This document shows positions 12,126 to 25,630 of a stretch of 64,000 nt of DNA, one piece after another. The notes beneath the pieces were generated by a model, which saw nothing but the letters and a program-made list of their open reading frames with translations, had not been told where the DNA came from and did not search any database. This DNA is from Mycolicibacterium sp. TY81 (GTDB taxonomy: Bacteria; Actinomycetota; Actinomycetes; Mycobacteriales; Mycobacteriaceae): positions 4,650,001 through 4,714,000 of the forward strand of contig NZ_AP023362.1 in NCBI RefSeq assembly GCF_018326285.1. The letters run 5' to 3'. Position 1 is the stretch's first letter. Each line of letters opens with the position of its first letter. The translations under genes and the position numbers were made by a program.

Positions 12126-12158
12126 TAAGAAAGGCACGCGCGCTCGCGCTAAGAAAGG
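12117..12158. repeat. 18-bp near-identical direct repeat at the end of the phosphotransferase gene
   Basis: CGCTCGCGGTAAGAAAGG (12117-12134) recurs at 12141-12158 with one change. The second copy contains the stop codon of the minus-strand phosphotransferase gene. The first copy forms the right edge of the palindromic element, suggesting the element's arrival duplicated the gene's end. Confidence 0.6.
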
Positions 12159-13171
12159 ACTGCTAGTCCGGCGGCGATGAGCGGCGCGACGGCCTCGCCG
12201 ACGGGGTCGTCGTGGCCGGCTTCGCCGGCGGCCATGCGGGCGCGGAAGTCGATGCCGGCGGCGATGATCGCCAGCTTGAAGTACGCGAGCGCCAGGTAAA
12301 AATCCCAGTGATCGAGAGGCTGCCCGGCCGCCACGGAGTACTTCTGGGCGAGCTGGTCCATCGGCGGGATCTTGTCCGAGGACCACGCCGCGTCGGAATG
12401 CACCATCGAGAACATCGGGTGCCGGTAGACGCACATCAGCGCGGCGTCCGACAGCGGGTCGCCCAGTGTCGACATCTCCCAGTCCAGCACCGCGCGCACC
12501 CTGGTCGCGTCGACGGCGTCGAGCATGGTGTTGTCGATGCGGTAGTCGCCGTGCACGATGGCGCTGCGGCTCTGCGGCGGCAGCTTCTCGGCCAGCAGGG
12601 CGTGCAGCCGGCGCACATCGTCGTCGCGCGGATCGTCCGGCAACCGCACCAGGTCCCACTGCGAACCCCACCGCCGCACCTGCCGTTCCAGGTACCCGTT
12701 GGCCTTCCCGAAATCCCCCAGCCCGACCGCTTCCGGGTCCAGGGCGTGCAGGTCGGCCAGCACCTTGATCAGCGCGTCGACACAGGCGTCGATGGTCTGC
12801 TGATCGCCCAGCGCGTCGAGCTCTGCCGAGTACCGCACAACCCGGCCGGGCACGAATTCGACCATCTGGAACGGCGCACCGAGTACCGAGTCGTCGTCCC
12901 GCATCGTCACCGGATGCGCCACCGGCACCGTTGTACCCTCAAGCGCCGCAACGACTTTGTACTCGCGGGCCATGTCGTGCGCCGACGGCGTCAGGCCGTG
13001 CAGCGGCGGCCGGCGCAACACCCACTTGGCGGCGTCGTCGAACACCAGGAACGTCAGATTCGACCGGCCACCGGCGATCAATTCGGCGCGCAGCTCGCCG
13101 GCTCGGGTCACCCCGATGTCGCGCAGGTGCGCGTCGAGGGCGGTCAGATCAAGGCCGTCGAGAGATCCCAC
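12149..13171 (-). CDS. Phosphotransferase (APH/ChoK-like kinase) family protein
   Basis: A 340-residue aminoglycoside phosphotransferase-fold protein. The Brenner-type motif VHGDYRIDNTML has catalytic D209 and N214; the magnesium motif DWE is at 230-232. A GGRSNLTF nucleotide loop lies at 34-41. It resembles the ACAD10/11 N-domain-like family, and occupies the position of Rv3761c, which was named fadE36 although it is kinase-like. It lies 9 bp downstream of the histidine phosphatase gene in one operon. Substrate unknown, possibly a hydroxyacyl compound. Confidence 0.85.
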   Translation of the reverse strand: MGSLDGLDLTALDAHLRDIGVTRAGELRAELIAGGRSNLTFLVFDDAAKWVLRRPPLHGLTPSAHDMAREYKVVAALEGTTVPVAHPVTMRDDDSVLGAPFQMVEFVPGRVVRYSAELDALGDQQTIDACVDALIKVLADLHALDPEAVGLGDFGKANGYLERQVRRWGSQWDLVRLPDDPRDDDVRRLHALLAEKLPPQSRSAIVHGDYRIDNTMLDAVDATRVRAVLDWEMSTLGDPLSDAALMCVYRHPMFSMVHSDAAWSSDKIPPMDQLAQKYSVAAGQPLDHWDFYLALAYFKLAIIAAGIDFRARMAAGEAGHDDPVGEAVAPLIAAGLAVLS

Positions 13172-13180
13172 CCGATCTGT

Positions 13181-13789
13181 CTACCACCGCTGATTTCGCG
13201 GCAGCAGATCCCACACGTGTTCGACGCTGTTGACGCCGGCGACCGCCAGCCGGCCGCTGCGCGAGGCCAGCAGCCGGGTGATGCCGGTGTAGTCGACCTG
13301 GAACGACAGGATGCGCTCGGTCGGCACGATGTCGTGCAGCAGTCCGTTGATCACGCCGCCGTGGCTGAAGATCACGACGGTGTCCTCGGCCTCGGCCTCG
13401 CTCGCGATGTCGGTGACGGCCTCGGTGATGCGGGCGAGGAACGCCTCCTCGTCGACGCTGCTGGGCAGGTGGCCGGTCATGAGCCGGGCCATCTCCTCGG
13501 GATGCTCGGCCGCGATCTGCTCGATGGGGATGTACTGCGCCATGTCGCGGTCGTACTCGGCGAGCCGGTCGTCGATCTCGATGGGCAGCCCGAGCGCATC
13601 AGCCACCGGCTGGCCGGTCTGGATGGCGCGCTTCTGCGGGCTGCTGATGAGCCGCGTGATCGGGAACCGCTTGAGCGCGTCCGGCAGCCGGTCGGCCTGC
13701 GCGATGCCTTCCTCGGAGAGGTCGGGGTCGGCGCCCTCACCGGGCTCGTTGCGCAGCGGCAGGGCATGACGGATCAGAAGCAGTTGCAT
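13181..13789 (-). CDS. Histidine phosphatase (phosphoglycerate-mutase-like) family protein
   Basis: A 202-residue enzyme of the branch-1 histidine phosphatase superfamily. The phospho-accepting His8 lies in LIRHALPL, the supporting arginine in SSPQKRAIQT, and the second catalytic histidine in VIFSHGGVINGLL. The ATG at 13789 has GGAGG 8 bases upstream, better than the frame's further extension. Co-transcribed with the kinase-like gene. Substrate cannot be inferred. Confidence 0.88.
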   Translation of the reverse strand: MQLLLIRHALPLRNEPGEGADPDLSEEGIAQADRLPDALKRFPITRLISSPQKRAIQTGQPVADALGLPIEIDDRLAEYDRDMAQYIPIEQIAAEHPEEMARLMTGHLPSSVDEEAFLARITEAVTDIASEAEAEDTVVIFSHGGVINGLLHDIVPTERILSFQVDYTGITRLLASRSGRLAVAGVNSVEHVWDLLPRNQRW

Positions 13790-13842
13790 AGCGGTTTCCT
13801 CCACAGCGGTTGTGCGCTGACGGGCAATACTATGCAGCTAAG

Positions 13843-13854
13843 TTGTCATGACAA
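13843..13854. promoter_or_regulatory. Candidate GntR operator (TTGTCATGACAA)
   Basis: A perfect 12-bp palindrome 22 bp upstream of the GntR/UTRA start and 53 bp upstream of the divergent histidine phosphatase start. A related sequence precedes the FAD oxidoreductase at 18104. HutC-type GntR regulators favour GT..AC-type sites, so autoregulation is likely. Confidence 0.6.
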
Positions 13855-13876
13855 GACACCGAGAGGCGGTACACCG

Positions 13877-14608
13877 ATGGTCGGCTCCCGGTCGCGCCAT
13901 GAGCACGTCGCGGCCGTGCTGCGGCAGCGGATCACGCGGCACGAGTACCAGATCGGTGAGTCACTGCCCGCCGAGAGCGCACTGTGCGCGGAGTTCGACG
14001 TATCCCGAGGTCCGGTCCGCCAGGCCCTCGCGACGCTGAAAAACGAAGGCCTGATCCGCATTTCGCGGGGCAAGCCGGCCACCGTCCGCAGCCACGACGT
14101 CCGCCAGACGCTGGACACGTTCACACCGTTCACCCAGTGGGCCGAACGCAACGGCCGCACCGCAGGGAGCCGAACCCTGGAGATCTCGCGCCGACGCGCC
14201 GGCGAGACCGCGGCCACCGCGCTGAGCCTGACCACCGACGACTTCGTCGTCGAAGTGCTGCGCGTGCGACTGCTCGACGGTGAACCCGTGATGATCGAGC
14301 GGAGCAGTTTCACCGACGCGGTGGGTTCGCTGCTGTTCGAATTCGACACCGACTCCGGATCCATCACGGACTATCTCACCGACCGTGGTGTGCAGTGGGA
14401 CGCCATGGAGCACATGCTGGACGCTGTCGCCGCCGACGACATCGACGCCGAGAACATGCACCTCGAGCGGGGCAGTCCCCTGTTGCGTGAGCGTCGTACC
14501 TCACGCGATCAGTTCGGGGTGGCGTTCGAATATTCCGACGACCGTTACCGGCCCGACGTGGTGGCCTTCAGCATCGTCAACGCCCGCACCATCGACGTCC
14601 GCGCCTGA
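13877..14608 (+). CDS. GntR-family regulator, HutC/UTRA type (putative phosphonate-locus regulator)
   Basis: A 243-residue regulator. The winged helix-turn-helix covers about residues 5-72 (ESLPAESALCAEFDVSRGPVRQAL), and the UTRA effector domain spans about 95-235, ending in AFEYSDDRYRPDVVAFSI. UTRA regulators such as PhnF bind small metabolites including phosphonates or amino sugars. It is convergent with the transporter gene of the putative aminophosphonate locus, separated by a hairpin. Palindromes resembling each other lie before this gene and before the FAD enzyme operon, which makes it the likely controller of both. Confidence 0.85.
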   Translation: MVGSRSRHEHVAAVLRQRITRHEYQIGESLPAESALCAEFDVSRGPVRQALATLKNEGLIRISRGKPATVRSHDVRQTLDTFTPFTQWAERNGRTAGSRTLEISRRRAGETAATALSLTTDDFVVEVLRVRLLDGEPVMIERSSFTDAVGSLLFEFDTDSGSITDYLTDRGVQWDAMEHMLDAVAADDIDAENMHLERGSPLLRERRTSRDQFGVAFEYSDDRYRPDVVAFSIVNARTIDVRA

Positions 14609-14612
14609 CGAA

Positions 14613-14644
14613 CGATCCCCCGCAAGCGAACTCGCGGGGGATCG
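14613..14644. terminator. Bidirectional hairpin between convergent gntR and MFS genes
   Basis: CGATCCCCCGC and GCGGGGGATCG form an 11-bp GC-rich stem with a 10-base loop in the 47-bp gap between the two stop codons. No T run, so termination efficiency is uncertain. Confidence 0.6.
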
Positions 14645-14655
14645 CGCACAGGTGG

Positions 14656-15990
14656 CTAGTCGGCCACCGGCATCCGGTTCCAGTAGGGAATCAACAGCAG
14701 CATGGCGATGAACGCGGCCCCGGCGAAGCCGTAGAACAGTGCCGAGGTGCCCAGGTAACCCGGCAGCAGGCCACCGAGGATGGCGCCGACCGAGCCGCAG
14801 CCGTTGATGATGCCCGTCGCCGTGCCCGCGTGCTTGGACGTACCGAAGTCGACGGCCGCGATACACGAGATCATGGCATCGGCGCCATAGACGGTCAGGC
14901 CGATCAGGCCGAGGACGCCGACCATGATCCACACATTGCCCGTCGCGGTCAGCGGCCCGAACAGCATGAGCACCACAACCAGCACGGCCAGGCTGATCAC
15001 GCTCGCCGGCACCCGGCGGGCCTTGAACACCTTGTCCGAGACGCGGCCCAGCAGGATCGGGGCGATGACGCCGGCGATGCCGAACGCCACCGGGACGGTC
15101 ACCGCGGTGAACTTGTCACCGTCGTGCAGCTGTTCGGCGACGATCACCGGGCCCCACAGCAGGATGGCGTAGCGCGCCGGCTTGAGCAGAAAGTACGCTG
15201 CCCCAAGGGTTCTCACCATTTGATCCTTCAGCACGACAGCCAGGGACTCGCGCCACGACGAGCTGGGCTCGGCGATGGCCTCGTCCGCAGCGGCGGCGTC
15301 GAGCTCGACCCCCTCCACGGAATCCTCGGCCGCCCGGTACTCCTCGATAGGCGGCAGGCCGACATCGGCAGGGCTGTTGCGCTGGAAGATGAAGAACAGG
15401 ACGAACACCGCAGCGACGATGGCCGCACCACTGAAGAACGCCGCGCGCCAGCTGCCGAACAGGTCGTAGGCGAACCAGCCGACGACCGGCGCGGCGACGA
15501 GGCCGCCGAAGGCGTAGTTGGTGCTCCACAGCCCCAGGACGTGGCCACGTTCCCCGACGGAGAAGAACTGGGACATGTTGCTCAACGTGCCCGACCAGCC
15601 CGTCGATTGAGCCAGGCCTTGCACGATCATCAACGGCAACAGGAAGACCACGGCCGGCAGCAGACCCATGAACAGGGTAGCGACCGCCGAGATGGCCAGG
15701 CCGCCGAGCACGACCACGCGCGGGCCGAACCGGTCGGAGACCTGACCCCAGACGAATTGGCCGACGGCGTAGGCCGTGAGATACGCGGCGTCGAGGTTGG
15801 CCATGACGCTCTTGGTCAGATGGAGGTGCAGGACGGGGTCTTCGAGAATGCCGAGCTTGGCGACGGAGAACGTCTGACGGGTGAAATAGAAACCGGCACA
15901 GGCGATCCAGGTGATGGCAAAGATGCGGATACGCCAGCGTTGGTACTTCGGATTGGTGGTGCGCGACTTGGACAGCAGGGTGTGCGACAT
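14656..15990 (-). CDS. MFS transporter, organophosphate (OPA/GlpT-like) type
   Basis: A 444-residue transporter with 12 predicted membrane helices and a central cytoplasmic loop (residues about 205-245). The N-terminus (YQRWRIRIFAITWIACAGFY followed by FTRQTFSVAK) matches the opening of GlpT/UhpT/UhpC-type antiporters, where a conserved arginine precedes helix 1. This subfamily carries organophosphates in exchange for phosphate. Last gene of the minus-strand FAD oxidase/PhnX-like operon, 196 bp downstream of the hydrolase gene. Inferred to import an aminophosphonate; the substrate is not proven. Confidence 0.82.
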   Translation of the reverse strand: MSHTLLSKSRTTNPKYQRWRIRIFAITWIACAGFYFTRQTFSVAKLGILEDPVLHLHLTKSVMANLDAAYLTAYAVGQFVWGQVSDRFGPRVVVLGGLAISAVATLFMGLLPAVVFLLPLMIVQGLAQSTGWSGTLSNMSQFFSVGERGHVLGLWSTNYAFGGLVAAPVVGWFAYDLFGSWRAAFFSGAAIVAAVFVLFFIFQRNSPADVGLPPIEEYRAAEDSVEGVELDAAAADEAIAEPSSSWRESLAVVLKDQMVRTLGAAYFLLKPARYAILLWGPVIVAEQLHDGDKFTAVTVPVAFGIAGVIAPILLGRVSDKVFKARRVPASVISLAVLVVVLMLFGPLTATGNVWIMVGVLGLIGLTVYGADAMISCIAAVDFGTSKHAGTATGIINGCGSVGAILGGLLPGYLGTSALFYGFAGAAFIAMLLLIPYWNRMPVAD

Positions 15991-16159
15991 GGCTGTTCAC
16001 TTCCACTGGATGCGGGGTAAGGGAGCGCGGAAAAGAAGAGGGGCCGACCGGAGGCGTCAAAGCGCCATCGAGATCGTCGGCAAGGCAAGGGTTTTGGCGC
16101 GAGAGCGCGAGAGGTTAGAGTGAGAAGAGCGGGGGTGGCCGGGGCCGAGGGTGCGGCGC

Positions 16160-16185
16160 CCGACCACCGCGGAGTGCGTGGTCGG
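16160..16185 (-). other. Intercistronic hairpin after the PhnX-like gene
   Basis: CCGACCAC (16160-16167) pairs with GTGGTCGG (16178-16185) just downstream of the hydrolase stop, within the 196-bp gap before the transporter gene. No T run. It could protect the upstream message or reduce read-through; a separate transporter promoter in this gap is possible. Confidence 0.4.
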
Positions 16186-16186
16186 A

Positions 16187-16885
16187 TCAGCCCAGGGTTG
16201 CCACCAAACCGGGCAGGTCGGCCACGCTGTCCAGGACGTGGGTGGCGCCGGCAGCGGACAGCTGCGCGGCGTTGTGCGCGCCGGTCAGCACGCCGACCGA
16301 AGCGCGTGCTCCGGCGCGCAGGCCGGTGATGACGTCCGACGAGGTGTCGCCGACGACCACCATCGATTGCACCGAGTCGGTCTCGGTCTGCATGAGGGCT
16401 GCGAGCGCCATGTCGGGGTAGGGCCGCCCGCGGACGCCGGGAGCGGGGCAGAGCACTGCGTCGGCGAGGTCCTGCCAACCCAGCGCATCGATGATGGCCT
16501 GCTGGGTTTCCCGGGCGAAGCCGGTGGTCAGCGCTACCTTGATACCGCGGGACCGCAAAGATGTAATGACATGTTCGGCCTGCGGGATGGGGCTACAGTT
16601 GCCGTCTGCGACCAACTGGGCGTAACAGCGCTCGAACTCCTTGTTTGCCGCTTGCGCTTGCTCTTCGTTCCCGCGGCTGAGGTGGCGGAACACGACGATC
16701 TTCGACTGCCCCATGGTGTCGGCGACGTAGCGCAGCATCTCTTCGCGGTCCGAGTCGGTCTTCGACAGACCGGCATGACTGTCGGCGGCCAGGAACGATT
16801 GCTGTACCAGGCCGGTGTCCTCGACTGTCGTGCCGGCCATGTCGAACACGACCAGGCTGATTCCGGGTGCTGATTGACTTTCCAC
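16187..16885 (-). CDS. PhnX-like phosphonatase (HAD superfamily)
   Basis: A 232-residue HAD enzyme of the phosphonatase-like group (TIGR03351 type). Motif I is FDMAGTTV with nucleophile Asp15 and, as in PhnX, Ala in place of the usual second aspartate. The cap has MGQSK (58-62), which lines up with MGLLK of B. cereus phosphonatase, so Lys62 matches its Schiff-base Lys53. TTGFAR (120-125) and GRPYPD (153-158) match TTGYTR and GRPYPW; VGDTSSD is at 178-184. It would hydrolyse the C-P bond of a phosphonoacetaldehyde-like substrate. It lies 43 bp downstream of the FAD oxidoreductase, its usual partner. Alignment to PhnX is from memory. Confidence 0.87.
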   Translation of the reverse strand: MESQSAPGISLVVFDMAGTTVEDTGLVQQSFLAADSHAGLSKTDSDREEMLRYVADTMGQSKIVVFRHLSRGNEEQAQAANKEFERCYAQLVADGNCSPIPQAEHVITSLRSRGIKVALTTGFARETQQAIIDALGWQDLADAVLCPAPGVRGRPYPDMALAALMQTETDSVQSMVVVGDTSSDVITGLRAGARASVGVLTGAHNAAQLSAAGATHVLDSVADLPGLVATLG

Positions 16886-16928
16886 TTTCGCGTCCTTTTC
16901 CTTTGTGGTGGTTGATGTTTGGTGTGGT

Positions 16929-18074
16929 TCAGACGGTTGCCGGGATGCCGCTCGGCGACAGCACCCGGTCGACGACGGCGGCCGCCAGGCCCAGGCCGGT
17001 CGTCATGCCGATCCCGGTGGTGACCGTCACGACATGGGTGCGTTCCACCGGCTCCTCGATGAGGAACTCCTGCCCTGGGGCCGAGCTGTAGACGCCCTGC
17101 CACCGTTCTCTGACTTCGATGTCGTTGATGCCGAACAGTTTTCGGGTTTGGCTGAGCAGGATGTCGAAGCCCTGCTCAGACTGGAACGGCGCCGCTGCGA
17201 CTTCCCGGATGTGGGTGTCGCCGATCAACAGCGAGCCGTCGGGCTGCAGCGTGAACATCAGGTGCAGGTCGATGTCCACCGCCTCGGGGTGCTCGTCCCG
17301 CAGTCGCTGTGCGACGGCCCCGACGCTGGGCAGGTCCTCGAAACCTGAGTACCGCAGCAACGACCAACCGGTGAACAGCGGCGCGGGGAGCGTGACCGCC
17401 AGCGGCAGCCTGGCCCGGATCATGTGCAGCCGGCAGCGCAGCAATCCGTCGCGCTCAGCCAGTTCGGGAAAGAGCCGGTCGATGTCGTAGTTGACGGCGA
17501 TGAAGGTGGTCTCGGTATGTATCGGCCCGCGCGAGGTGTGCACGAGGCCCGGTTCGAAGCCGGAAGCCGCGGTACGCCAATGGAAGTCGACGCCCTGCGA
17601 TTCCAGCCACCGCGCGATGGATGGCACCGCCGTTCGCGGGTCGACCTGAAGGTCATTGGGCAGGTACATGCCCCCGACTACGCGCGGATCGCGCACCGGC
17701 ACGCGGTCGAGCAGCTGCCGGCGGCTGAGCAGGTGCACGTCACCGCTGGGCCGGACGTCGACGAATTCACGCATGACGGCCAGTTCGTCCTCGTGGCGGG
17801 CGACGCAGTAGGTGCCCGCCTGCTTCGACCAGAACCCGGCCTGCCGGGACAGACCGAGCCAGTGCTGCCGGCCGGCCCGGGCGTAGTCCAGCGCGACACC
17901 GTTCTGCGCGGTGATGCACGCGTGGCCGAAGTTCTGCACCGACGCGCCGACCACACCGGCGGCGTGATCGACCACCGCGACCGCCAGTCCGCGACGGTGG
18001 GCGTGATAGGCGTGGGCAAGGCCGACGATTCCAGCTCCTACGACAACGACGTCGTAGCTCCGTTGATTTGGCAT
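16929..18074 (-). CDS. FAD-dependent amine oxidoreductase, phosphonate-associated (HpnW/TIGR03364-like)
   Basis: A 381-residue DAO-fold flavoprotein. The dinucleotide motif VVVVGAGIVGLAHAYHAHRRG begins at residue 9, and the C-terminal FAD motif is TTGIGMTTGLGLAAAV. Members of this clade sit beside PhnX-like hydrolases and are proposed to deaminate an aminophosphonate to the aldehyde, replacing the transaminase PhnW, which is absent here. The ATG at 18074 is chosen because it precedes the FAD motif by a normal distance. First gene of a three-gene minus-strand operon whose leader contains a TTGTCAATACAA site. Confidence 0.86.
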   Translation of the reverse strand: MPNQRSYDVVVVGAGIVGLAHAYHAHRRGLAVAVVDHAAGVVGASVQNFGHACITAQNGVALDYARAGRQHWLGLSRQAGFWSKQAGTYCVARHEDELAVMREFVDVRPSGDVHLLSRRQLLDRVPVRDPRVVGGMYLPNDLQVDPRTAVPSIARWLESQGVDFHWRTAASGFEPGLVHTSRGPIHTETTFIAVNYDIDRLFPELAERDGLLRCRLHMIRARLPLAVTLPAPLFTGWSLLRYSGFEDLPSVGAVAQRLRDEHPEAVDIDLHLMFTLQPDGSLLIGDTHIREVAAAPFQSEQGFDILLSQTRKLFGINDIEVRERWQGVYSSAPGQEFLIEEPVERTHVVTVTTGIGMTTGLGLAAAVVDRVLSPSGIPATV

Positions 18075-18103
18075 GGCAATAACAGTGCGGCACATCGCCA
18101 TAG

Positions 18104-18115
18104 TTGTCAATACAA
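18104..18115. promoter_or_regulatory. Candidate GntR operator upstream of the FAD oxidase operon
   Basis: TTGTCAATACAA differs at two positions from the palindrome TTGTCATGACAA before gntR. It lies 30-41 bp upstream of the FAD enzyme start; read on the minus strand it contains TTGACA, so a bound repressor would cover promoter elements. The AT-rich tract 18137-18150 (TATATA) may serve the divergent SDR gene. Confidence 0.5.
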
Positions 18116-18261
18116 GTTATGCACGATTTCAGTACTCGTATATATAAGTGTAACGGCGTGTGAACGTGCGGGAAACACTGCCGATGGCGCACGACCACTA
18201 CGCCACGGTCGCCGTGACAACATGGGGACCAACACGCCACCCCAGCACCGAAGGAGCCGCC

Positions 18262-19020
18262 ATGGGGTACGCCGACGAACTGTTCGACCTCACGGACCGG
18301 GTGGTCCTGATCACCGGAGGCAGCCGCGGACTCGGCAGGGAGATGGCGTTCGCGGCGGCCCACTGCGGCGCCGACGTCATCATCGCCAGCCGGAACCTGG
18401 AGTCGTGTCAGGCCACTGCTGCCGAGGTCGTCGCCGAGACGGGCCGGGCCGCACTGGCCCATCAGGTGCACGTCGGCCGCTGGGACGAGTTGGACGGTTT
18501 GGTGGACGCCGCCTATGACGCGTTCGGCAAGGTCGACGTGCTGGTGAACAACGCCGGGATGTCGCCGTTGTACGAATCGCTGGACTCGGTGCCCGAGAAG
18601 CTGTTCGACGCTGTGGTGAATCTGAACTTCAAGGGGCCGTTCCGGTTGTCGGCACTGATCGGCGAGCGGATGGTGGCCGACGGCGGCGGGTCGATCATCA
18701 ACATCAGTTCGTCGGGCTCACTGCGGCCCGACGCCCACATGCTGCCGTACGCGGCCGCCAAGGCCGGATTGAACACGCTCACAGAGGGTTTCGCGAAAGC
18801 GTTTGGCCCGACGGTGCGGGTCAACACCCTGATGGCCGGGCCGTTCCTCACCGACATCAGCAAGGCGTGGGGTGCGGATCCGTCGAGCGCCTTCCGCTCG
18901 CTGCCGCTGCAGCGCGCCGGTGATCCTCGCGAAATCGTCGGCGCTGCACTGTTTTTGATGTCCGACGCATCCAGCTTCACCACCGGCTCGATCCTGCGCG
19001 CCGACGGTGGTTTCGCCTAA
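18262..19020 (+). CDS. SDR family oxidoreductase
   Basis: A 252-residue classical short-chain dehydrogenase/reductase. The cofactor motif TGGSRGLG is at 18-25, NNAG at 97-100, and the catalytic Ser near 149-151, Tyr163 and Lys167 (YAAAK) are all present. AAGGAG lies 6 bases before the ATG. It is divergent from the FAD oxidase operon, so it could be co-regulated with it, for example reducing or oxidising an aldehyde product, but nothing in the sequence fixes the substrate. Its last bases are repeated exactly at 21506-21523. Confidence 0.88.
   Translation: MGYADELFDLTDRVVLITGGSRGLGREMAFAAAHCGADVIIASRNLESCQATAAEVVAETGRAALAHQVHVGRWDELDGLVDAAYDAFGKVDVLVNNAGMSPLYESLDSVPEKLFDAVVNLNFKGPFRLSALIGERMVADGGGSIINISSSGSLRPDAHMLPYAAAKAGLNTLTEGFAKAFGPTVRVNTLMAGPFLTDISKAWGADPSSAFRSLPLQRAGDPREIVGAALFLMSDASSFTTGSILRADGGFA
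19002..19019. repeat. 18-bp direct repeat, left copy
   Basis: CGACGGTGGTTTCGCCTA ends the SDR gene here and occurs again, identical, at 21506-21523 just before the TetR gene's end. The two copies bracket the double-GGDEF gene. Confidence 0.75.
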
Positions 19021-23721: not shown

Positions 23722-25599
23722 CTACGGCGTGATGATGTTGAACGCCGGGTCGGGCCGGTCGATGGCGCCCAGCAGCGTGGGCAGGGCGGTGGCGTCACCG
23801 GCCACCTCGACACCCGGCGAGCTGGTGTCACCCGCGGCAAACGCCAAGAGCCGCAACTTGTTCGCCAGCGTGACGGTGGCCTGCACGGTGTCCGGGTCGG
23901 CGGCGACCTTGCGGTACACCAGCACGCCGTTGCGCAGGCTCAGCCGGTAGTTCGTGGCGACGTCTCGGAACGTCACGTCGATGGCCAGGTTCAGCTCCCA
24001 GGCCCGCGGACCGTTGATGTTGATCGCGAAGGTGTCGAACATCTGCTCCGGCGTCAGCTGCGCGAGCAGCGTCGGCGACGAGCTCTGCGTCGGGGTACCG
24101 AAGTTCCCGACCCGCAGCTCGGTGGCACCGGACAGGAAGAAGTTGCGCCACACGGCGTTCTCGGCGCCGTAGGCCATCTGCTCCAACGTGTCCGCATACA
24201 GCGACCGGGCCGCGGCGTGGTGCTCGTCGGTGAAGATCGCGTGGTCCAACAGGGTTACCGCCCAACGGAAGTCACCTTCGTCGAACGCGGCCTGCGCCAG
24301 CTCGACGACCCGGTCGATGCCGCCCATGGCCGCGACGTAGCGCGGCGCCGCCGCGGCCGGCGGGTGCTGCCAGAGGCGGCCCGGATTGCCGTCGAACCAG
24401 CCCATGTAGCGCTGGTAGACCGCCTTGACGTTGTGACTGACCGAGCCGTAGTAACCGTGTGTGTGCCAGGCCTTCTCCAAAGCCGGTGGCATCTGGAAGC
24501 TCTCGGCGATCTCGATGCCGGTGTAGCCCTGGTTGAGCTGGCGCAACGTCTGGTCATGCAGGTAGGCGTACAGATCCCGTTGCAGCGAAAGGTATTCGAC
24601 GATGTTGTCCTGCCCCCACGTCGGCCAGTGGTGCGACGCGAAGACCACGTCGGCGCGGCCGGAGAAGGTGTCGATGGCCTCGGTCAGGTAGCCCGCCCAG
24701 CCGTGCGGGTCACGGACCAGCGCGCCGCGCAGCGTCAGCAGGTTGTGCAGGTTGTGGGTGGCGTTCTCGGCCATGCACAGCGCGCGGAATTGCGGGAAAT
24801 AGAAATGCATCTCGGCGGGCGCCTCGGTGCCGGGCGCCATCTGGAACTCGATCTCGACGCCGTCGATGGTGTGCGTCTCGCCTGTCACCTTGATGTCGAG
24901 CGTCGGCACGATCAGTGCCACCTCACCCGTCGACCCGACCTGCCCCAGACCACAGCCGACCTGGCCCTGTGGACCACGGTCGAGCGCCGCTCCGTACATG
25001 TAGCCGGCGCGGCGCGCCATTGCCGTTCCGGCATAGACGTTTTCCTGCACCGCGTGCTCGGTGAAGCCTTCCGGCGCGATGATCACGACGTGGCCGGCGT
25101 CGACCTCGGCCTGCGACGTCACGCCCAGCACGCCGCCGAAGTGGTCGGCGTGGCTGTGCGTGTAGATGACGGCCCGGACCGCACGGTCACCGCGGTGCGC
25201 GCGGTACAGCGCCAGCGCCGCCGCGGCGGTCTCCGTGGAGATCAGCGGGTCGATGACGATGATGCCGGTGTCACTCTCGATGAAGCTGATGTTCGACAGG
25301 TCCAGGCCCCGGACCTGGTAGATGCCTGGTACCACCTCGTAGAGGCCCTGCTTGGCGCACAACTGGGACTGCCGCCACAGGCTGGGGTGCACGCTGTCCG
25401 GGGCGTCGCCGTTCAGGAAGTTGTAGGAGTCGTTGTCCCACACCACTCTTCCGTCGGCGGCGGTGACGACGCACGGTTCCATGGCGGCGATGAAGCCGCG
25501 GTCGGCATCCTCGAAGTCCCGGGTGTCCGCGAACGGGAGCGTCGCGGTGTGAGCGCGGTTGGCGGCGGCAATGGCATCGGTGGGCGGCTTCTGCTCCAT
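23722..25599 (-). CDS. Alkylsulfatase-like metallo-beta-lactamase fold hydrolase (SdsA1 type)
   Basis: A 625-residue protein. The N-terminal MBL domain has THSHADHFGG at 147-156 and further metal ligands in EAPAEMHFYFP and ENATHNLHN; then come a helical dimerisation region (about residues 400-495) and a C-terminal SCP2-like domain (LAQLTPEQMFDTFAININGP onward). That is the full architecture of secondary/primary alkylsulfatases such as SdsA1. No signal peptide is seen, so it acts in the cytosol. The ATG at 25599 is preferred to the TTG three codons upstream. It is followed by the convergent oxygenase end. Confidence 0.9.
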   Translation of the reverse strand: MEQKPPTDAIAAANRAHTATLPFADTRDFEDADRGFIAAMEPCVVTAADGRVVWDNDSYNFLNGDAPDSVHPSLWRQSQLCAKQGLYEVVPGIYQVRGLDLSNISFIESDTGIIVIDPLISTETAAAALALYRAHRGDRAVRAVIYTHSHADHFGGVLGVTSQAEVDAGHVVIIAPEGFTEHAVQENVYAGTAMARRAGYMYGAALDRGPQGQVGCGLGQVGSTGEVALIVPTLDIKVTGETHTIDGVEIEFQMAPGTEAPAEMHFYFPQFRALCMAENATHNLHNLLTLRGALVRDPHGWAGYLTEAIDTFSGRADVVFASHHWPTWGQDNIVEYLSLQRDLYAYLHDQTLRQLNQGYTGIEIAESFQMPPALEKAWHTHGYYGSVSHNVKAVYQRYMGWFDGNPGRLWQHPPAAAAPRYVAAMGGIDRVVELAQAAFDEGDFRWAVTLLDHAIFTDEHHAAARSLYADTLEQMAYGAENAVWRNFFLSGATELRVGNFGTPTQSSSPTLLAQLTPEQMFDTFAININGPRAWELNLAIDVTFRDVATNYRLSLRNGVLVYRKVAADPDTVQATVTLANKLRLLAFAAGDTSSPGVEVAGDATALPTLLGAIDRPDPAFNIITP

Positions 25600-25630
25600 G
25601 CCGACCAACCTAGCGTCAATTTCCCGCGGG

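Follow-up and report, generated by a model that had tools for sequence, protein, structure and literature searches.

A likely aminophosphonate operon of Mycolicibacterium sp. TY81 combining an FAD oxidase, a phosphonatase-like hydrolase and an AepP-type permease under a GntR-family regulator

A stretch of 64,000 nucleotides from Mycolicibacterium sp. TY81 (contig NZ_AP023362.1, positions 4,650,001 to 4,714,000; hereafter the window) contains a four-gene locus that we consider likely to be a substrate-induced operon for 2-aminoethylphosphonate (AEP) and N-methyl-AEP (M1AEP). A preliminary description of the same DNA had reported three minus-strand genes convergent with a UTRA-type GntR regulator gene, and open reading frames and family matches confirm all four at the place given:

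13877..14608, plus strand: gene for a GntR-family (HutC/UTRA) regulator, from its open reading frame and a family match
14656..15990, minus strand: gene for an OPA-family major facilitator superfamily (MFS) permease of the AepP type, from its open reading frame and an OPA-type family match
16187..16885, minus strand: gene for a HAD phosphonatase-like hydrolase (TIGR03351), from its open reading frame and family score
16929..18074, minus strand: gene for a flavin adenine dinucleotide (FAD)-dependent amine oxidase (TIGR03364, PbfD-related), in a frame open to 18110

The FAD protein belongs to TIGR03364, the HpnW/PbfD FAD oxidoreductase family of NCBIfam (431.7 bits; curated cutoff 285.1), and the HAD protein belongs to TIGR03351, the phosphonatase-like hydrolases (281.4 bits; curated cutoff 218.9), a family for which we found no enzyme assay in the literature. 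By score the hydrolase is not PhnX: the true PhnX model (TIGR01422) gave 87.2 bits against a cutoff of 220, and we file it as PhnX-like, the term of the earlier designation.

Two samples were surveyed for these families. GTDB genomes were scanned with the window HAD protein and the best 79 of at least 511 relatives were kept as loci (L numbers), not each of which was scored against TIGR03351; the second sample comprised 148 genomes of the genus (G numbers), the TY81 genome included. The surveys are not independent, because some genomes occur in both (L014 is G063, L019 is G049, and L008 is G109). In the genus sample, TIGR03364 exceeded its cutoff in 43 genomes and TIGR03351 in 48; 42 genomes had both, one the FAD gene only, six the HAD gene only, and 99 neither (Fisher p = 3e-29, shared descent not accounted for). 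Forty of the 45 over-cutoff TIGR03364 genes, the window's among them, lie within 500 bp of an over-cutoff TIGR03351 gene, 39 of them on the same strand, as expected from the synteny of the two families cited in the preliminary description. The five FAD genes without an adjoining HAD gene are in G121, G096, G034, G028, and G077, and 13 of the 53 HAD genes have no adjoining FAD gene. An FAD match was found in 62 of the best 79 loci (61 under a stricter search). The FAD, HAD, and window-type GntR genes occur together in all 29 loci from L004 to L032, from Mycobacteriaceae, Nocardiaceae, Gordonia, Segniliparus, and one unplaced actinomycete; the MFS gene is also present in 23 of these 29 cassettes, so the grouping is not accidental, and the GntR gene is nonconvergent in two (L030 and L032). 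In a tree of FAD proteins, the window and L004 to L032 form one supported 30-row clade, whose sister, of 16 rows, unites Microbacteriaceae with one unplaced metagenome-assembled genome and has a PhnE match in 16 of 16; the tree flagged long branches, and its deeper joins are unsure.

It had been inferred that the oxidase replaces the transaminase PhnW, and this holds up. No PhnW was detected at 1e-60 or over cutoff in the 148 genus genomes, including that of TY81, under conditions in which the positive control scored 570 bits, and an Acinetobacter PhnW query matched nothing in any of the best 79 loci. Two PbfD enzymes, PbfD1, which is stated to be a TIGR03364 member, and PbfD2, have been assayed and use oxygen to convert M1AEP and AEP into phosphonoacetaldehyde, and a PhnW-free pathway of PbfD2 and PhnX has already been described (PMC10590968). 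By analogy, the window enzyme is predicted to oxidize AEP and M1AEP. It is closer to a Comamonas protein linked to phnX only (34.5% identity) than to the phnW-linked Acinetobacter proteins (23.5 to 25%).

The residues of the HAD protein are consistent with cleavage of a C–P bond. Among 82 HAD sequences, Asp15 is kept in 81, and Gly59, Lys62, Arg154, Asp180, and Asp184 are kept in 82. Lys62 lies within the PhnX MGxxK motif, the Met of which is Met58 in the window and is present in 75 of the 82. We take the catalytic roles to be those of PhnX, in which the Asp is the nucleophile and the MGxxK Lys forms the Schiff base. An AF2 model of the protein (pLDDT 94.2) had PhnX as its top Foldseek matches; in a VIA-align comparison of the model, other HAD phosphatases were equal to or above PhnX. 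We therefore regard it as a predicted C–P bond hydrolase.

The same hydrolase family has a second partner. Six genus genomes (G001, G009, G017, G059, G077, and G118; loci L096 to L101) pair an over-cutoff TIGR03351 gene with an HpnZ-type gene and not with TIGR03364; G077 and G009 hold TIGR03364 sequences elsewhere, that of G009 being broken. A relative of the L096 alcohol dehydrogenase adjoins the TIGR03351 gene in all six (the other five are 66 to 74% identical to it), and the L096 enzyme, the one scored, is HpnZ (TIGR03366, 417 bits; cutoff 328). A GntR protein 43 to 50% identical to that of the window is found in five of the six genomes. Across the 79 loci, an HpnZ-like gene (37 to 51% identical to that of L096) follows the HAD gene in 21, and 16 of these also have an FAD gene. 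That one hydrolase has two different potential sources of phosphono-aldehydes in its vicinity supports the HAD enzyme as a shared C–P cleaving step, and the assayed PbfD enzymes, which did not oxidize 2-hydroxyethylphosphonate (PMC10590968), leave a role for a separate dehydrogenase. A broader proposal, which we advance tentatively and think somewhat doubtful, is that TIGR03351 represents a second, chemically distinct C–P hydrolase with the Schiff-base lysine and without the PhnX histidine, serving as the final reaction common to two or more actinobacterial phosphonate routes, one from aminophosphonates through the FAD oxidase and one from hydroxyalkylphosphonates through HpnZ; it would possibly act on aldehydes other than phosphonoacetaldehyde, and would here be coupled to a phosphate-exchanging importer in a nitrogen-gaining cycle.

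Other TIGR03351-type sequences were encountered. In G009 (C1, 3011695-3013496), a TIGR03364 gene broken across two frames adjoins an over-cutoff TIGR03351 gene, probably a decaying cassette. The TY81 genome has a second TIGR03351-like stretch (G000:C1 6118527-6118883, L124; 104.8 bits) covering the C-terminal half only and lying among genes that by eye resemble transposases; it is probably the decayed remnant of another phosphonatase-like gene. In L105 and L106, genes just below the cutoff (207.6 and 214.4 of 218.9) adjoin genes for a phosphate:H+ symporter-like MFS and a PhnM-type amidohydrolase (family-scored in L105 only), a further arrangement of a TIGR03351-type hydrolase.

The permease matches OPA models, all below their cutoffs, and the GlpT glycerol-3-phosphate transporter model (TIGR00712) was rejected at 164.1 bits against a cutoff of 632.55. 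Its best sequence match in the PDB is the E. coli GlpT structure (3.4e-33), and the permease and E. coli GlpT share 25.9% identity. Identity is 53 to 57% to Pseudomonas OPA proteins that are themselves 26 to 27% identical to GlpT, and 53.5 to 55.5% to the P. putida OPA proteins P0148, P0157, and P0185, a comparison that bears on a possible orthology to PPUBIRD1_3129. Arg38 and Arg273 of the window protein are the counterparts of the GlpT phosphate-binding pair Arg45 and Arg269, and Tyr42, Tyr76, and Tyr362 of GlpT are also kept. At the positions of GlpT Lys80, His165, and Tyr266, the window and Pseudomonas proteins alike have Gln, Tyr, and Lys, and Tyr38 is Cys only in the window protein among the eight compared. 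AepP, a GlpT-like MFS protein whose published 27.75% identity to GlpT is near the values of these Pseudomonas proteins, is a proven AEP permease of Pseudomonas putida BIRD-1 (PMC8316502); it is required there for growth on AEP as nitrogen and carbon source (PMC8316502, PMC9311074) and can support growth on AEP as phosphorus source too (PMC9311074). An OPA-type antiporter acting as importer is thus less of a novelty than had been supposed. By sequence and by analogy with AepP, the window protein is predicted to be an aminophosphonate:phosphate exchanger.

MFS homologs (E ≤ 1e-30) were found in nine of the 148 genus genomes, directly after the HAD gene in eight. The ninth (G009) is 50 to 52% identical and stands with a GntR gene whose product is 49% identical to that of the window and an HD-oxygenase-like gene, with no FAD gene, in a group (L118 1802-5845) about 12 kb from the HAD and HpnZ cluster of that genome; this group is perhaps a different phosphonate route that shares its importer and switch with the window. 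The FAD and HAD pair is found with three types of importer: the MFS, 2AEP-type ATP-binding cassette (ABC) importers (L090, L033, L034, L036, and L039, and also L093, whose HAD protein is unscored against TIGR03351), and PhnD/PhnE (L038; a PhnE match occurs in 16 of the best 79 loci). No PhnD-type binding protein exceeded the cutoff in the TY81 genome (best 28.8 of 112). The inference that the MFS stands in for the usual ABC importer holds up, since more distant FAD and HAD relatives carry 2AEP-type or PhnD/PhnE importers instead. The best MFS match in the plasmid collection, in a Pseudomonas aeruginosa plasmid record (L121 7956-10809), neighbors a LysR gene, a HAD-IB phosphatase gene, and a PhnR-like regulator gene (286 of 296.75 bits), with no FAD or phosphonatase-like gene annotated alongside.

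The kinship of the permease with organophosphate carriers brings up another reading, with a phosphate ester (phosphoethanolamine, for instance) as the compound taken up by the MFS and an ordinary phosphatase as the HAD protein. This we judge very improbable: the PhnX-like GxxK lysine motif is kept in 82 of 82 HAD sequences, phosphonate importers and HD-domain oxygenase-like genes are found in synteny, a PhnR-like regulator also adjoins the P. aeruginosa MFS, and the assayed PbfD enzymes showed no reaction with the non-phosphonate analogs named in the available text (PMC10590968).

The regulator contains PF00392 (GntR helix-turn-helix) and PF07702 (UTRA) and so belongs to the GntR/HutC subfamily; its best NCBIfam match, PhnF (TIGR02325), fell below the cutoff (96.9 bits; cutoff 156.8). 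It is predicted to be an aminophosphonate-responsive repressor, and the following control elements were located:

13843..13854, no strand: operator OR, TTGT-N4-ACAA, 22 nt 5′ of the regulator ATG, from a pattern match
14613..14644, no strand: inverted repeat between the MFS and GntR genes, arms 14613-14626 and 14631-14644
18082..18087, minus strand: −10-like hexamer CACTGT, 17 bp from the −35-like hexamer and 7 nt 5′ of the ATG
18103..18117, minus strand: operator O2 (ACTTGTATTGACAAC), 5′ of the FAD-HAD-MFS operon, from a leave-one-out weight matrix
18105-18110, minus strand: −35-like hexamer TTGACA inside O2, exact in 26 of 30 loci
18135..18149, minus strand: upstream element O1 (ACTTATATATACGAG), 32 bp (about three helical turns) from O2

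The window has two copies of TTGTN4ACAA, at 13843 and 18104, and the coordinates 13843 and 18115 that bounded the locus in the preliminary description are the outer ends of these two sites. The operator pattern TTGTNNNNACAAG, which takes in the following G, has only two copies in the 6.47-Mb genome, one 5′ of the regulator gene and one 5′ of the operon; its reversed form has 18. In the 79 loci (915,735 bp), 33 TTGTN4ACAA sites were found, 32 of them just 5′ of an FAD or GntR start and one within a GntR gene (coordinates read by eye). A weight matrix was built from the same 30 related loci (the window and L004 to L032) and applied leave-one-out; in 29 of 30 loci the site 5′ of the FAD gene ranked first or second, the miss being L030, and the site 5′ of the GntR gene was strong in 17 and weak in one (L006). 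The predicted operator core, GT-ATTG-AC, has its GT and AC 4 nt apart and fits the HutC consensus GT-N4-AC (PMC4494728). Because the conserved operator sits immediately upstream of ATG 18074, this codon is most likely the true FAD start, rather than the listed 18110.

Conservation of TTGACA within O2 is indistinguishable from conservation of the operator itself. In 23 of 30 loci, a CACAGT-like hexamer that agrees at five or more of six positions follows it by 17 to 18 bp (best of four spacings; no background computed); the hexamer lies 6 or 7 nt from the assumed ATG in 21 of 30. Given an operator that contains TTGACA and a hexamer so close to the ATG, we propose that the FAD-operon mRNA may be leaderless and that the regulator may be a repressor covering the −35 box. 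The O1 pattern recurs in 23 of 30 upstream regions, compared with 17 of 8721 background 40-bp windows, some 30 to 32 bp 5′ of O2; its identity to the O2 consensus is 11 of 15 in the window and 13 of 15 in L032, and it is possibly a degenerate second operator. At the other end of the operon, the 47-bp gap between the convergent MFS and GntR genes holds the inverted repeat, which folds at −25.9 kcal/mol (z −3.55) and is likely to be a bidirectional terminator shared by both genes.

From the families, synteny, co-occurrence, residues, and operators observed, we infer the substrates, the direction and coupling of transport, repression, and the physiological role as follows. The AepP-type MFS would import the aminophosphonate, probably in exchange for phosphate. 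The FAD enzyme, replacing PhnW, would deaminate it oxidatively to phosphonoacetaldehyde, ammonia or methylamine, and H2O2, and the TIGR03351 enzyme, with its Asp nucleophile and Schiff-base lysine, would split the C–P bond to give acetaldehyde and phosphate. The released phosphate could power the import that follows, so that each cycle would gain nitrogen and two carbons and no net phosphorus, and the kit would serve mainly for nitrogen (and carbon), in line with the nitrogen and carbon role of AepP and with control by the local GntR. The GntR/UTRA protein would occupy O2 across the −35-like box, as well as its own promoter, and leave when a pathway compound binds.

Several observations weigh against this reading. 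The window FAD protein is only distantly related to PbfD1-type proteins (25% identity to that of an Acinetobacter sp. and 23.5% to that of A. baumannii, over partial length). Position 65 of the HAD protein, three residues past the Schiff-base Lys, is His in both PhnX references, the counterpart of His56 of B. cereus PhnX, and is Val in 66 and Ala in 16 of the 82 HAD sequences; the family also has Met for Trp at 16 and Phe for Tyr at 123. Twelve of the 79 loci, those of distant HAD relatives (37 to 44% identity, several on short contigs), had no match to FAD, HpnZ, or a tested importer, although two of them, L061 and L062, do match an ABC ATPase; these 12 also weigh against the hydrolase as a shared step fed by two enzymes. 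The operator is absent upstream of the GntR gene in the remaining 12 of 30 loci (Rhodococcus, Antrihabitans, Gordonia, Segniliparus, and the mycobacterium L027). Finally, the MFS is missing from six of the 29 cassettes, and these six genomes held no homolog at 1e-30 in a search in which two MFS-bearing genomes both showed theirs; the MFS-less cassettes are scattered through the 30-row FAD clade, as would follow from more than one loss of the MFS. A lack of co-occurrence, which the preliminary description named as a refuting result, was nevertheless not the outcome.

The active-site changes mean that the HAD substrate may differ from phosphonoacetaldehyde. The same kit could act on another aminophosphonate, 1-hydroxy-2-aminoethylphosphonate or a further AEP derivative, with the HAD enzyme splitting the matching hydroxy-phosphono-aldehyde, as guessed in the TIGR03364 family description (quoted in PMC10590968). 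The differences from PhnX at three near-active-site positions in 81 or 82 of 82 sequences agree with this, as do the HAD score far under the PhnX cutoff, the lack of an Acinetobacter-type PhnW match in the 79 HAD loci, and the HpnZ-type alcohol dehydrogenase in HAD clusters, as if the hydrolase met several aldehydes. However, the importers near related loci are annotated as 2AEP importers, and the assayed PbfD enzymes turn M1AEP and AEP into phosphonoacetaldehyde (PMC10590968). AEP and M1AEP are for that last reason likelier substrates; the aminophosphonate chemistry of the preliminary description is supported, and its 1-hydroxy compound we think unlikely.

A further question concerns the role and not the chemistry, and overlaps with the AEP/M1AEP operon proposed here: the locus might be a phosphate-controlled system for scavenging phosphorus rather than one for nitrogen or carbon. 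Many phosphonate operons are phosphate-regulated, and the end product is phosphate. A phosphate-exchanging importer, however, yields no net phosphorus, such conserved control sites as were found match the local GntR, and P. putida depends on AepP to use AEP as nitrogen or carbon source, though the permease can also support growth on AEP as phosphorus source (PMC8316502, PMC9311074). We regard this role as rather unlikely.

The wider neighborhood of the cassette (window 12149-19020; also L010 and L004) is fixed and includes genes for an APH-type kinase, a histidine phosphatase, and a short-chain dehydrogenase/reductase (SDR). In the window and in L004 the SDR gene flanks the FAD end of the cassette; in other mycobacteria that showed it, it flanks the regulator end. 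Either this gene or the cassette has therefore moved locally. A large hydrolase, alkylsulfatase-like by eye, is encoded near the cassette in the window (23722-25608), and an alkylsulfatase-like hydrolase (again by eye) directly 5′ of the FAD gene in L010 (2869-4746) and L120 (2896-4812). In some mycobacteria, and not in the window, the gene directly 5′ of the FAD gene is for a YfcE-type phosphodiesterase (L019 4258-4788, L109 511-1011, and L114 540-1040); that of L114, the only one of the three scored, matched TIGR00040 (87 bits over 56).

Both replacements have precedents, in the PbfD oxidases and AepP. New here are the operator pattern and conserved operon site, a HAD enzyme that has an altered PhnX-type active site and occurs in clusters with two possible feeder enzymes, and three importer types with the FAD and HAD pair. 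These findings extend oxidative phosphonate use without PhnW to mycobacteria and rhodococci. TIGR03351 becomes a testable C–P hydrolase whose active site differs from that of PhnX in a defined way, and the operator, present twice in its own genome, is a candidate reporter with which to identify the inducer. The three importer types of related lineages, together with close Rhodococcus loci that have the MFS (L022, kin of R. wratislaviensis, with the full cassette) or lack it (L021, R. opacus), offer a natural experiment on phosphonate uptake.

Among known systems, the PbfD and PhnX pathway (Zangelmi et al. 2023, PMC10590968) likewise uses a PbfD-type oxidase to reach phosphonoacetaldehyde without PhnW, and then a HAD enzyme to free phosphate; the window differs in having TIGR03351 and not PhnX, an MFS importer, a GntR/UTRA switch, and an actinobacterial host. 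The same report mentions PbfD homologs outside phnWX and phnWYA clusters in Terrabacteria; the enzymes it assayed are from other phyla. AepP of P. putida BIRD-1 (PMC8316502, PMC9311074) resembles the window permease as an OPA-type MFS about 26 to 28% identical to GlpT, with phosphate-binding residues kept and other substrate-side residues changed, but its partners are PhnWX and LysR regulators, whereas those of the window MFS are the FAD and TIGR03351 enzymes and GntR. In the hpnW-phnX operons of Achromobacter (PMC11203657), a TIGR03364 gene also replaces phnW beside a phosphonatase gene, which there encodes a true PhnX and is accompanied by the ABC importer phnSTU, a LysR regulator, and an HD-domain protein. 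Finally, the Tsukamurella plasmid locus NZ_LR134449.1 (L090) shares an annotated TIGR03364 FAD gene, a phosphonatase-like hydrolase, and a GntR regulator with the window, but has a 2AEP ABC importer in place of the MFS and an FAD protein 41% identical to that of the window.

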